Origin: Xanthomonas sacchari
GTDB lineage: Bacteria > Pseudomonadota > Gammaproteobacteria > Xanthomonadales > Xanthomonadaceae
Direction: 5' to 3'
Assembly: GCF_040529065.1 (NCBI RefSeq)
Contig: NZ_CP132343.1
Span: forward strand, 1,860,001 to 1,924,000
Length of the DNA stretch: 64,000 bases
Both the position numbers and the translations under genes were made by a program. Below are positions 33,677 through 38,155 of this stretch, in pieces. The notes under the pieces were generated by a model that had not been told where the DNA came from, ran no database searches, and saw only the letters and a list, made by a program, of their open reading frames with translations. The stretch's first letter is position 1. Each line of letters begins with the position of its first letter.

Positions 33677-35659
33677 ATGAAGAGGGGACTGCGCGCAGTC
33701 GCGTTGTTGTGTCTGCTGGGAGCGGGGAATGCATGGGCGCAGGTGGATCTGGCGCCTTATCTGGTCAAGGAGCAGGTCGAGACACTGAAGCTGTCGCCCA
33801 CCGGCGAGTATTACGCGGCGACAGTGCCGCTGGAGGATCGGACCGCGCTGGCGATCATGCGCCGCTCCGACAATAAGATCGTCGGCAGCTTCTCGATGGA
33901 GAAGAACACGCACGTCTTCGATTTCGTGTGGGTCAACGACACACGCGTGCTGTTCAACATGGTCCAGAAGATCGGGCAGCGGGATCAGCCGTGGGGGACC
34001 GGAGAACTGTTCGCGATCAACGCCGACGGCGGCGCGGCGGAACTGTTGGTGGGCCAGCGCGTAACCGGTAACGGGCCGGGCACGCTGATCCAGACCAAGA
34101 AGGTGGAGAAGGTCATCGCCCACTGGGTGGGGCCGCTACCCGGCGACGATCGCAACTACATCATCCAGGCGGAGCCGTTCAGTACCAGTCAGGACCCTTA
34201 CAGCCGCACCGAAGTGATGGACGTCTACAGCGGCCGCCGGCGTTTGTTGACCGGTTCGCCCAAGGTGCGAGGTGCCCATTTCTACAGCGATGAGCAAGGC
34301 AAGGTGCGCTTCGCCTTGGGCGCGGATGCCGACAATGCCGCGAAGTTGTTCTATCGGGATGCGCAGGGCAGCGACTGGAAGCTGATCAATGACGAAAACG
34401 TCAGTCATCATGTGGAAACGCCAATCGGTTTCTCCGAAGACGGGCATGTCGCGTACCTGCAGGTACAGCAGGCGAAGGGAAGTGACGTCATCGAGTCGTG
34501 GAATACCGACAGCGGCGAGCGCAAGGTAGTCGCGCGCGATTTGCTGGCCGATCCCCACCAGATCATGTATCGCCATGGCACCCGCGTCCCCGTCGGGATC
34601 GAGGTACTTGGCGACACGCCACGCAGCGTGTTCTTCGATGCGAATTCTCCCGAAGCCAAGACCCAGCGTTCGCTCGAAGCAGCCTTTCCGGGACAGGCGG
34701 TCTACGTCACTTCCAGCACTCGCGACGGCCGGCTCAACCTGGTCAACGTGCAGTCCGGTCGCAATCCGGGCGAGTTCTATTTGTTCGATACCGTCGCCAA
34801 GAAGGCCGACTTCGTGTTCGCGCGCCGTGCCGCACTGCAGGTGCCGAAGCTGGCGGAGGTGCGGCCGATTGCGTTGCAGGCGCGAGATGGCCTGCCGCTG
34901 CATGGGTTCGTGACGCTGCCGGCGGCGGCCAAGTCCGGCAAGGTGCCGATGGTGGTGATGCCGCATGGCGGCCCGGTCTTGGTCTTCGACAACGGTATGT
35001 TCGATGAGGATGCGCAGATCCTGGCCAGCGCCGGTTACGCGGTGCTGCAGGTCAATTATCGCGGCTCCAGCAACTACGGGCGTGCGTTCCAGTTGGCGGG
35101 CGCCGGCCAGTGGGGCGGCAAGATGCAGGACGATCTCACCGACGCCACGCGCTGGGCGATCGATCAAGGCATCGCCGACCCGCAGCGCATCTGCATGTAC
35201 GGTGCCAGCTATGGCGCCTATGCGTCGTTGATGGGTGTGGCCAAGGAGCCGACGCTGTATCGCTGCGCTGCAGGCTATGTCGGTGTCTACGACCTGCCGA
35301 TGATGTACGCAAGAGGCGATGTCCAGCAACGCGATGGGGGTCAGACCTATCTGCGCGAGTGGCTGGGGTCGACCAGCGAACTGGCTGCGGTGTCGCCGGT
35401 CAATCTGGCCGACAAGATCAAGGTACCCGTGTTCCTGGCCGCTGGCGGCGAGGACGAGCGCGCGCCCATCCAGCACTCCAAGAAGATGGAAGCCGCCCTG
35501 AAGAAGGCGGGCGTGCCGGTGGAGACGCTGTACGTCCCGACCGAGGGCCATGGCTTCTACACCGAAGCGCATCGTCGCGAGTTCTACACCCGGCTGCTGG
35601 CGTTCCTGAGCAGGTCGCTGGGCGGTGCGCAGGCGGCGCCGGCGGCAGCGAAGCAGTAA
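33677..35659 (+). CDS. secreted S9 family serine peptidase (prolyl oligopeptidase-like)
   Basis: 660 residues. A signal peptide (AVALLCLLGAGNAWAQ) leads to a beta-propeller and a C-terminal hydrolase domain. The likely triad is S511 (YGASYGAYAS), D593 (GGEDERAP) and H625 (TEGHGFYTEAHR). It converges on a lasso-type peptide/cyclase unit. Lasso peptide isopeptidases (AtxE2 type) belong to this S9 group and often flank such clusters, so it is a candidate, but general dipeptide-processing is equally possible. A decayed copy of its 3' end lies at 37950-38155. Confidence 0.88.
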   Translation: MKRGLRAVALLCLLGAGNAWAQVDLAPYLVKEQVETLKLSPTGEYYAATVPLEDRTALAIMRRSDNKIVGSFSMEKNTHVFDFVWVNDTRVLFNMVQKIGQRDQPWGTGELFAINADGGAAELLVGQRVTGNGPGTLIQTKKVEKVIAHWVGPLPGDDRNYIIQAEPFSTSQDPYSRTEVMDVYSGRRRLLTGSPKVRGAHFYSDEQGKVRFALGADADNAAKLFYRDAQGSDWKLINDENVSHHVETPIGFSEDGHVAYLQVQQAKGSDVIESWNTDSGERKVVARDLLADPHQIMYRHGTRVPVGIEVLGDTPRSVFFDANSPEAKTQRSLEAAFPGQAVYVTSSTRDGRLNLVNVQSGRNPGEFYLFDTVAKKADFVFARRAALQVPKLAEVRPIALQARDGLPLHGFVTLPAAAKSGKVPMVVMPHGGPVLVFDNGMFDEDAQILASAGYAVLQVNYRGSSNYGRAFQLAGAGQWGGKMQDDLTDATRWAIDQGIADPQRICMYGASYGAYASLMGVAKEPTLYRCAAGYVGVYDLPMMYARGDVQQRDGGQTYLREWLGSTSELAAVSPVNLADKIKVPVFLAAGGEDERAPIQHSKKMEAALKKAGVPVETLYVPTEGHGFYTEAHRREFYTRLLAFLSRSLGGAQAAPAAAKQ

Positions 35660-35711: not shown

Positions 35712-35750
35712 GCATCAGTGCGGTCCGGTGCTTTCGGATCGCACTGATGC
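35712..35750 (+). terminator. long hairpin after the S9 peptidase
   Basis: GCATCAGTGCGGTCCG and CGGATCGCACTGATGC form a 16-bp stem with one G-T pair and a 7-base loop. There is no T run. It sits 52 bases after the peptidase stop. Confidence 0.55.
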
Positions 35751-35979
35751 GGGGTGAATTCCCTCGCTCAGTGTGAGCAAGGGGCGCTTGGAGGTCTTGT
35801 CGCCGTCATCGTCGTGGATGGCGCGAGGCTGAGTCTGCCCCTGCTCAGCGTGTACCGCGGGGTTATCTGCGAGGTGAAAACTGGCGCTGCATCAAGTGCC
35901 GACCACCACTTCGACACCGTCGTGCAGCCACTTCCGGGTCTGCCGGGACGGCGGCTTCGAGACCTGTTGAATGCGACTG
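35751..35979. other. gap downstream of the cyclase, no recognisable gene
   Basis: This is where a lasso B gene would be expected (3' of the C gene on the minus strand). All three minus-strand frames contain stops or no conserved Cys-His-Asp protease motif, and no PqqD-like leader-binding domain can be seen. A fragment in one minus-strand frame (FHLADNPAVHAEQGQ) is not attributable to any family I know. Confidence 0.5.
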
Positions 35980-37545
35980 TCAGGCAAACTGCCGAACGAA
36001 GCGCTCCAGCCAAAGGAACGAGATCAACGGTGCCGTCAGCGGACGCGCGCGCGTCGCCACCAACTCGTCCAGCAATTGCAATGCGGCGTCTCGGTCGACC
36101 AGGCCCAAGTCGGCGAGGGCGCATTCGCGCAGCTGCATGGCGATCGTCTTGGCGTGACGTGCGATCAACTCGGGGAGAACATGCGCGAATGTTTCCTTGC
36201 AATAATTCCGCGGAAATATGTCGTCTACGTTGGCCCGTAAATAGCGCCACATCGTTTCTCGATCTTTACGGCACTCGAGGGGGAGGCCCCGACAGAAAGC
36301 CACCAGATGTGGATCGCTTAAGGGATTGACCGGCCAGAGGCCTCGCCGAAGCAGATGGGGAGCCTGGCACGCGTTCGACGCCAATACGGATGCAGACAAC
36401 AGACCGGTGGGGGCATCAAATCCACTGATTGAACGCGATGCAGTGAGCGCTCGGGGCGTCAACAACAGGTTCGCGCGGCGCTTGGCTTCTGCAGCCACCC
36501 CGCTGCCGGGGCCTGCGGTGGGATGTTCCTCGTTCCGGTACATTGGGAACAGCTGGTCTCCGCCAATACCGGTGAAAAGCCATTCGCTTTCCTGTGCTTG
36601 AGCGCAGTCCCACAAATGTTCAAATGCTTCGAGATAGAACTCGACAAGGGGATAGTCCGGTCGAGCCGCACTCGGTTGCAGATCGAGCGTTGGTGGAAAT
36701 GAAACGATGGGGACGCTCGTGTCGCGAAGGCCGAGCTTTTCAACAAGCATGCGGCGGCGTTGTGCCTGGTTTTGACTGTCTGCCTCGTCGAGCAAGATTC
36801 CAAAGCTCAGGATGTTTTCATGCGATCGCGTCAGAGCGCATGCAACGGTCGCCGAATCCATGCCCCCACTCAATTCCGTGGCCACCCCCCGCGAAGTCGG
36901 TCGAATCGAAATGGCACGATGCAACAGCTGCTCGAATCGCTCTACGCCGTAGTCGATCAGTGCTTCTTCGGAAGGCGATCCGATTTCAGCAGGCGAAGGA
37001 TAGACGTAACGTGTCTTGCCCGGCTCGGCGTAAAGCGTGGCGCGTTCTGTCAGCATTACGACACCCGAACACAACTGTCTGGCGGAGTAGTCCGCGTTAA
37101 GTGCGAGACGCCGACTGGCCATCTCCAGGTCGATGGTGGTGGGTCGGGAAAAAAAGTCGGCCAGATCGTAGGAGAGTTCTACTGCGTCATCGGTGACCCG
37201 GCAATAGACCGGCACCGATGCGAGAAGGCCTGCGCGCAATTTCAGTCGGGATCCGGCCTGGGCCACTTCGATCATGAGATAATCAAGCGGCCATAGCAGA
37301 GCCTCTTTGTATAGCCGGTTGAATTGATCGGCATCGACCAGCACGCCCGCATCGTCTTTTTTCCATTCGACATCGGTGCAGCGCTCGCGTACCGCCGCGA
37401 ACCACTGTCCCTGCGTGCGAACCACGACGGTTTCCAGCGCAGGGTGGCGGTAGGGCGCGATCTGGCTGTTCCCGAGGCACAGGATATTGTCCTGCCACAC
37501 CGGGGAATGTTCGAGGTCGGAAAAAGCGACGTTGGCTTTGATCAT
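35980..37545 (-). CDS. lasso peptide-type asparagine synthetase-like cyclase (C protein)
   Basis: 521 residues from ATG 37545. The synthetase domain has the ATP pyrophosphatase loop ELSGGMDSATVA (residues 224-235) and the later GIGGDQLF (326-333). The N-terminal half resembles a glutamine amidotransferase domain but does not start with Cys, so it cannot use glutamine. Both traits fit lasso macrolactam synthetases, which adenylate an Asp/Glu side chain for attack by the core N-terminus. The only upstream gene is the 54-residue precursor. No B gene follows. Base composition is visibly poorer in GC than neighbouring genes. An upstream in-frame ATG at 37662 would overlap the precursor and cross the hairpin. 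Confidence 0.82.
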   Translation of the reverse strand: MIKANVAFSDLEHSPVWQDNILCLGNSQIAPYRHPALETVVVRTQGQWFAAVRERCTDVEWKKDDAGVLVDADQFNRLYKEALLWPLDYLMIEVAQAGSRLKLRAGLLASVPVYCRVTDDAVELSYDLADFFSRPTTIDLEMASRRLALNADYSARQLCSGVVMLTERATLYAEPGKTRYVYPSPAEIGSPSEEALIDYGVERFEQLLHRAISIRPTSRGVATELSGGMDSATVACALTRSHENILSFGILLDEADSQNQAQRRRMLVEKLGLRDTSVPIVSFPPTLDLQPSAARPDYPLVEFYLEAFEHLWDCAQAQESEWLFTGIGGDQLFPMYRNEEHPTAGPGSGVAAEAKRRANLLLTPRALTASRSISGFDAPTGLLSASVLASNACQAPHLLRRGLWPVNPLSDPHLVAFCRGLPLECRKDRETMWRYLRANVDDIFPRNYCKETFAHVLPELIARHAKTIAMQLRECALADLGLVDRDAALQLLDELVATRARPLTAPLISFLWLERFVRQFA

Positions 37546-37598
37546 GGCGACTCGGCTGCCTGCGATCGGCGTCGTGTGGTTATCGCGCTTTCGAACAG

Positions 37599-37626
37599 AA
37601 GAACGCCGCCTGATGGCGGCGTTCTT
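37599..37626 (-). terminator. hairpin between lasso precursor and cyclase
   Basis: AAGAACGCCGCC-ATCA-GGCGGCGTTCTT on the minus strand, a perfect 12-bp stem with a 4-base loop. It lies 33 bases after the precursor stop and 54 before the cyclase start. The lack of a clean T run suggests partial termination or 3'-end stabilisation, giving more precursor than enzyme. Confidence 0.75.
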
Positions 37627-37658
37627 TATCGCGATATCTTGATGGAATTGCCGTCGTT

Positions 37659-37823
37659 TCAACCACCCGGTTGCGTGGAGTACCCGCGAGAATCCTCGCC
37701 AAGATAAGGCTTCATCTCGCAGACGCCAGGCGCCGCGATAGTTTGCATGGGCTCGTCGAGCTGGATAGCAAAAGGATTGGATAGAGAATCTTGTTTCTCA
37801 AGCTTGCCATCTTGGATTTTCAT
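37659..37823 (-). CDS. candidate lasso peptide precursor (54 residues)
   Basis: ATG 37823 follows a strong AAGGAG ribosome site at 7 bases. The leader (residues 1-29) ends MQTI, with Thr at the penultimate position required by lasso leaders. The proposed core is residues 30-54: AAPGVCEMKPYLGED then SRGYSTQPGG. Ala1 would close on Glu7, a seven-residue ring as in xanthomonins (GGPLAGEE), and the A-x-P-G start recalls paeninodin (AGPGTS). The core has one Cys, at position 6, inside the ring. The gene is directly upstream of the cyclase and too short for most gene callers. The cleavage site is inferred. Confidence 0.7.
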   Translation of the reverse strand: MKIQDGKLEKQDSLSNPFAIQLDEPMQTIAAPGVCEMKPYLGEDSRGYSTQPGG

Positions 37824-37883
37824 CACAAAGCTCCTTTTCTAGATGTCGTCATGCGGCGACGAGCAGAACCTAGCACCGCGCCT

Positions 37884-37912
37884 GTAGCAAGACAAGATCT
37901 TTAAGATTTCAA
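37884..37912 (-). promoter_or_regulatory. candidate promoter of the lasso unit
   Basis: Minus-strand TTGAAA (37907-37912) and TGCTAC (37884-37889) with a 17-base spacer, about 60 bases before the precursor start. The surrounding 60 bases (37861-37920) hold only 26 G/C, far below the rest of the window. Confidence 0.4.
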
Positions 37913-37949
37913 TAGTTTCATATGAAATGTATTGGGTTGAGAGGTTCAA

Positions 37950-38155
37950 ATGCCGATCTGCGTTGTCCATGCACAACTAATCCGCATTGAGGCGACGCTG
38001 GGGGGCTGTGTGCCGGTGGGGAGGATGTACGCCCCGGCGGGGGGCATGGATTCCATGCCGAAGCGCATCGCTGCGAGTTCTACACTCGCGCGCTGGAATT
38101 GCTGAGTGCTCGCTGTGCAGCTACGTAGGCGGTGCCGGCGTCGGCCAAACCGTGA
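37950..38155 (+). pseudogene. 3' remnant of a second S9 peptidase gene
   Basis: Plus-strand translation gives VHAQLIRIEATLGGCVPVG then, after restoring one base, HGFHAEAHRCEFYTRALELL and a tail ending AVPASAKP-stop. It aligns with the C-terminus of the peptidase at 33677-35659 (QHSKKMEAALKKAGVPVE, HGFYTEAHRREFYTRLLAFL, AAPAAAKQ-stop). There is a 1-base deletion and an in-frame TAG. The 5' nine tenths of the gene are missing; the low-GC lasso unit starts where the similarity stops. Confidence 0.8.

Follow-up and report, generated by a model that had tools for sequence, protein, structure and literature searches.

A two-gene unit of Xanthomonas sacchari pairs a short precursor peptide with an asparagine-synthetase-type enzyme and may form a Lys-Asp side-chain macrolactam

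The genome of Xanthomonas sacchari carries a two-gene unit in which a 54-residue precursor peptide is encoded next to a 521-residue asparagine-synthetase-type enzyme. We analysed it in a window of 64,000 nucleotides, positions 1860001-1924000 of the one-contig 4.957-Mb genome. A preliminary description had seen in it a lasso peptide unit devoid of a B gene, which encodes the leader peptidase and recognition protein. It was right in that the precursor of a modified peptide sits next to a cyclase of asparagine-synthetase type and that a B gene is missing; the lasso reading itself is mostly unsupported by the family alignment and by the search for B proteins. We favour, as somewhat probable, a two-gene system in which the enzyme binds the leader, adenylates an invariant Asp of the core and joins it to the side chain of an invariant Lys, giving a macrolactam of 7-8 residues. 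There is a fair chance that this ribosomal peptide with its asparagine-synthetase-type cyclase constitutes a class of its own.

The precursor gene lies at 37659..37823 on the minus strand, stop included (ATG 37823, stop 37661-37659), and is preceded by an AGGAG ribosome-binding site at 37831..37835 on the same strand. The open reading frame (ORF), its strong ribosome site and the segment MQTI-AAPGVCEMKPYLGED...TQPGG are present as first described. The peptide consists of a leader block, NPFAIQLDEPMQ, a linker and a core with the invariant Lys38 and Asp44. The codons from Lys38 to Asp44 (KPYLGED, 37692..37712, minus strand) would delimit a seven-residue side-chain ring, predicted from the invariance of these two residues. 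The enzyme gene follows on the minus strand after 113 bases, at 35980..37545, stop included. Its start is most likely ATG 37545, which is kept in relatives, rather than the upstream TTG chosen before. The SGGMDS and GIGGDQLF motifs and the missing N-terminal glutaminase Cys are confirmed.

The two genes are kept together. Our order-level set comprises 36 loci: 35 from 34 genomes, one of which contributes two, and L013 of Dyella silvatica. The plasmid set comprises 13 loci opened from plasmid matches in Xanthomonas sacchari, Mesorhizobium, Bradyrhizobium, Rhizobium and Streptomyces. A short peptide ORF adjoins the enzyme gene at all 36 and all 13 of these loci. It lies upstream at 35/36 order-level and 13/13 plasmid loci, and downstream once (L064:7711-7872), for L042, where the upstream search was empty. 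The precursor is thus present at every carrier locus examined, so that the lack of a conserved precursor in relatives, which would have refuted the first description, is not seen. Precursor and modifying-enzyme genes kept together are what would be expected of a ribosomally synthesized and post-translationally modified peptide (RiPP), the modification itself being predicted. An all-against-all comparison of 31 flank stretches (L012 and L048 being one locus) gave no third conserved gene: the enzyme alone is common to all of them, and we interpret the remaining large clusters as shadow frames, either of the enzyme or of Xanthomonas neighbours.

Both genes are under purifying selection. Among nine close copies, from eight Xanthomonas-genus genomes and one Rhodanobacter, the ratio of nonsynonymous to synonymous substitution rates (dN/dS; 36 pairs for each gene) reaches 0.079 in the precursor gene and 0.196 in the enzyme gene. 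The short ORF is therefore more than a product of chance, and the suggestion that the unit is decaying is contradicted. Two precursor copies accompany the enzyme at three loci (L004, L009 and L029).

Only four columns are invariant in 38 aligned precursors: Met1, one leader Pro, one Lys and one Asp. Over 39 precursors the Asp follows the Lys by six residues in 33 cases (K-x5-D) and by seven in six (K-x6-D). The common architecture is a leader block N-P-F-x-I-Q-x3-P-M/L-Q, which is not strict, then a variable linker and the C-terminal core. K-x5-D is present in 12/12 distant plasmid loci, whose peptides are otherwise dissimilar: KVRLPGD and KRRLPGD in Mesorhizobium, KGPFPSD and KAPFPND in Bradyrhizobium, KPAGTED, KMPGGGD and KAAETSD in Streptomyces, and KGGKPGD in Rhizobium. 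Since shuffling nine of the peptides yields K-x5-D in 17-49% of cases, any single occurrence is weak. The joint chance for L113, L115, L117, L118 and L119, taken as the product of the shuffle rates, is about 4e-4, a value to be read with the Mesorhizobium enzymes nested among those of the order in the tree, the two Streptomyces loci being kin and some ORFs picked by eye. In the Bradyrhizobium precursors of L115 and L116 another K-x5-D starts at residue 10, close to the N-terminus; it is perhaps a second ring site, perhaps chance.

The same alignment disagrees with the ring proposed at first, between Ala1 and Glu7 of the window core. At the Glu position, 19 of the 39 precursors have Ala, 18 have Glu and 2 have some other residue; conservation singles out Lys38 and Asp44 instead. 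The Thr at position -2 is Asn in 8/10 Xanthomonas-type precursors, and Pro3 is Ala in L003. The Cys inside that ring does exist in the window peptide, being restricted to the 10 Xanthomonas-type precursors.

In a Pfam scan the window enzyme matches PF00733 (E 2.1e-11), NAD_synthase and QueC and nothing else; no ATP-grasp ligase is found. Its best NCBIfam match is NF033561, the albusnodin/ikarugamycin family macrolactam cyclase (1e-7), which also comes first for L114 (2.5e-10) and L115 (4e-9), at scores of 31-40 bits that lie far below the cut-off of 300. Asparagine synthase outscores this model for L118 and L119, and L117 and L121 do not match it. The match to lass_lactam_cya is weak (1.6e-4, 20 bits, cut-off 525). 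Unit enzymes begin M-I/L-K and have no Cys1, unlike AsnB, in which the N-terminal nucleophile Cys serves glutamine hydrolysis. The AlphaFold model of the enzyme shows a complete asparagine-synthetase/beta-lactam-synthetase fold, and the ATP motif is in place. At 0.01, the 12-row profile found no matching PDB chain. Because matches of the asparagine-synthetase class cover residues 1-521, no extra recognition domain stood out in the fold, an absence that proves nothing. In the tree, 21 unit enzymes form one clade (97/98), separate from the two same-order lasso cyclases included, with weak deep forks. They also stay outside the grouping of the true asparagine synthetases included, in agreement with the earlier assignment as a cyclase. 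The own genome also has separate PF00733 matches at 3379074-3379991, in a frame of 612 aa; the protein of this frame is 563 aa long and begins MCSIFG.

Lasso peptides call for a B protein, or for a B1 recognition element with a B2 protease, encoded in the cluster or elsewhere in the genome, and we looked for a B protein at three scales. There is no B-like gene among the window ORFs of 30-44 kb. PF13471 gives no match in the complete own genome at 0.001 or at 0.1, a B protein beyond the models' reach being possible; the one PqqD-like match in this genome lies at position 3687001, far from the unit. At 0.1, PF13471 matches something in 28 of the 34 carrier genomes, and 19 of the 34 pass Pfam's cut-off, but strong matches, at 4e-18 or below and in frames 240-274 aa long, are confined to four: G495, G406, G134 and G226. 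In G495 and G406 the strong match is flanked by a cyclase gene and a short precursor gene, in lasso-like clusters separate from the unit, so the search can detect real B genes. The precursors of these clusters (L078 and L081) contain VETQ-GGPLTNEVIGGFAPMGISQE (VETQ-GGPL...) and VETK-GMAGITENFGLVPIDGISEA (VETK-GMAG...), and we take them to be xanthomonin-like. The window peptide shares with xanthomonins a xanthomonad origin; the clusters of G495 and G406 differ from its unit by another precursor, another cyclase clade and a B match of their own. Two weaker matches that we read (L072 and L074) are about 500 aa long, start like signal peptides and contain a transglutaminase-like region; by eye they are not lasso B proteins. 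With strong matches in 4/34 genomes and the two weaker ones that we read looking like secreted transglutaminase-like proteins, most carriers have no good B candidate. A B protein acting from elsewhere in the genome, as had been suggested, is thereby contradicted for the window strain and for most carriers.

Members of this superfamily adenylate a carboxylate, which an amine then attacks; in beta-lactam and carbapenam synthetases that amine belongs to the same molecule. Since the Lys and the Asp are both invariant at near-fixed spacing, activation of the Asp and attack by the Lys make the economical reading. The enzyme itself would bind the leader block and spend ATP on adenylating the invariant Asp at its side-chain carboxylate. 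The invariant Lys would then attack the activated Asp through its side-chain amine, closing a side-chain macrolactam of 7 or 8 residues; for the window peptide, this would be a Lys38-Asp44 link with the loss of 18 Da. With a side chain as the nucleophile in place of a freshly cut N-terminus, a dedicated leader peptidase would be unneeded; this would account both for the lack of an encoded protease and for the variable residue in front of the Lys. Trimming and export would be left to unlinked host proteins. These steps, like any bioactivity of the product, are what we infer.

Lys-Asp side-chain macrolactam chemistry is otherwise associated with ATP-grasp enzymes. Graspetides are made by ATP-grasp ligases, whereas the enzyme here is a PF00733 protein of asparagine-synthetase-class fold. 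The likeness lies in the product, with side-chain linkages that include Lys lactams on a leader-bearing peptide (compare PMC13097080), predicted here for the unit. That the unit represents an undescribed RiPP class, where one leader-binding enzyme of asparagine-synthetase type makes a Lys-Asp side-chain macrolactam with neither a separate recognition element nor a dedicated protease, has in our estimate an even chance.

Several points weigh against the Lys-Asp side-chain ring. The invariant Lys and Asp could serve recognition and not bonding. Indirect arguments alone tell a side-chain ring from a lasso starting at the Lys. The Lys of the enzyme's KETF is, at the aligned position, Arg in L117, L119, L121 and L122 and Pro in L118. 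AlphaFold left the core unplaced, in a model that is an artificial single chain, with 9 of its 28 rows fused. At L113, L115, L116, L118, L120 and L124 the short ORFs are missing from the gene table shown and were chosen as short ORFs with a possible ribosome site just upstream; that of L118 was preferred over another, annotated short ORF.

The main rival, which we hold to be a minor possibility, is an unusual true lasso: a host protease would cut before the invariant Lys, whose alpha-amine would join Asp7 or Asp8, and the tail SRGYSTQPGG would thread the ring. K-x5-D and K-x6-D would then correspond to rings of 7 and 8 residues, inside the lasso range, made by an enzyme from the lasso-cyclase superfamily on a window core of 17 residues. 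Lasso cores have their Asp or Glu at position 7-9, and for the invariant Asp to fall there the core has to start at the Lys or close to it. Lasso clusters also resemble the unit in setting an asparagine-synthetase-like enzyme beside a short precursor, with a lactam ring of 7-8 residues, here predicted. They differ from it in that the unit has no B protein, and in that its Thr(-2) and N-terminal ring residue are unconserved, with an invariant Lys instead; a section of PMC10368454 gives Thr, rarely Ile or Val, at position -2 of lasso leaders. The PF13471 results above speak against a lasso starting at the Lys, as do the varying residues that precede the Lys, the separate enzyme clade (with the weak deep forks) and the chemistry, since an alpha-amine gives no need for a Lys.

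It is unlikely that the Asp is activated for an acceptor other than the Lys, be it ammonia (yielding Asn), a backbone amide (yielding an aspartimide) or another molecule, the Lys then serving recognition. Ammonia would have to be supplied without a glutaminase Cys, and the fixed Lys-Asp spacing would be left unexplained. Quite improbable is that the short ORF is a regulatory or structural partner of an enzyme working on a small molecule. Beta-lactam synthetase and carbapenam synthetase do have small molecules as substrates, in which they differ from the peptide cyclase proposed here, and the closest solved relatives of the enzyme use such substrates; on the other side, the precursor is doubled at three loci and downstream at one, and its conserved leader and core around a variable linker resemble a substrate peptide. 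An ordinary lasso with the Ala1-Glu7 ring and a B protein in trans fits the window peptide taken by itself, and carriers G495 and G406 own separate lasso clusters with a strong B match, but with Glu, Thr(-2) and Pro3 not conserved and no B in the own genome this ring is rejected on the family alignment, and we consider it very improbable.

Several carriers of the unit are bacteria of soil or plants. The enzyme was found in 9/297 genomes of the family, including 8 of the 18 same-genus genomes listed, and 29/397 genomes of the order, in 12/98 genera. No further carrier appeared among 398 genomes of the phylum or 369 of the class, thin samples of large groups. Searching 72,556 plasmids with tblastn gave 47 records (Rhizobium 27, Bradyrhizobium 13, Streptomyces 3, Mesorhizobium 2, Xanthomonas 1 and Aminobacter 1). 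The enzyme had no match in phages, nor in viral contigs in one pattern-based scan.

In the non-carrier Xanthomonas L125 an S9 peptidase gene directly adjoins a peptide transporter gene; in the window, about 2.26 kb (35746..38008) holding the two genes of the unit alone separates them. A stretch of about 140 bases from the S9 3' end stands on either side of the insert, the two copies being 76.6% identical over 141 columns: the gene end itself at 35513..35652 and the second copy, on the opposite side, at 38010..38148, both on the plus strand. The non-carrier G271 has S9 genes in tandem (L128 and L131); recombination at duplicated S9 ends may thus have brought the insert in. Because the insert holds just two genes, because neighbourhoods differ outside Xanthomonas and because the enzyme alone is shared, the precursor-enzyme pair appears to move alone. 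The enzyme of L022 (Rhodanobacter, twin of L011) is 81% identical to that of the window, against 48-55% for the other f12 enzymes aligned; a transfer between families is therefore probable from the sequences. That the two-gene cassette travels through Xanthomonas and its order, rhizobial plasmids and Streptomyces plasmids is, taken jointly with the undescribed-class reading, evenly balanced in our judgement.

Between precursor and enzyme, a hairpin with a 12-bp stem was computed at 37599..37626 (minus strand), a possible attenuator. A perfect-stem hairpin occurs in this gap at 25/35 loci scored, and none was found in the other 10. If leaky, it would favour much precursor and little enzyme. Downstream of the unit, Streptomyces loci have an ABC transporter (L117 and L121) or a methyltransferase (L118), and Mesorhizobium L114 has APH-type and GNAT genes, possible functions being export, tailoring or immunity. 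On Rhizobium plasmids an acyl-homoserine-lactone synthase gene lies near the unit in L119, L122 and L123, which hints at population-dependent control; rhiA is also close by in two of them, L119 and L123. The unit of strain 3841 stands just before nifHDK and nifE. Seven Rhizobium plasmid records (H85-H91) match enzyme residues 1-181 only and strain 3841 (L123) matches in two pieces, so that the enzyme gene looks broken in these.

A full-text search of PMC returned no paper attributable to this family, a preprint outside PMC or a subscription paper being possible. If the Lys-Asp bond is true, the asparagine-synthetase fold has reached the product of the ATP-grasp graspetide ligases. A single enzyme with neither partner protein nor protease would then be among the simplest peptide macrolactamases, and useful for making cyclic peptides. 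For genome mining, a short ORF beside an asparagine-synthetase-like gene is not automatically a lasso cluster. In the well-studied pea symbionts, the family offers a defined peptide locus next to genes for quorum sensing and nitrogen fixation.
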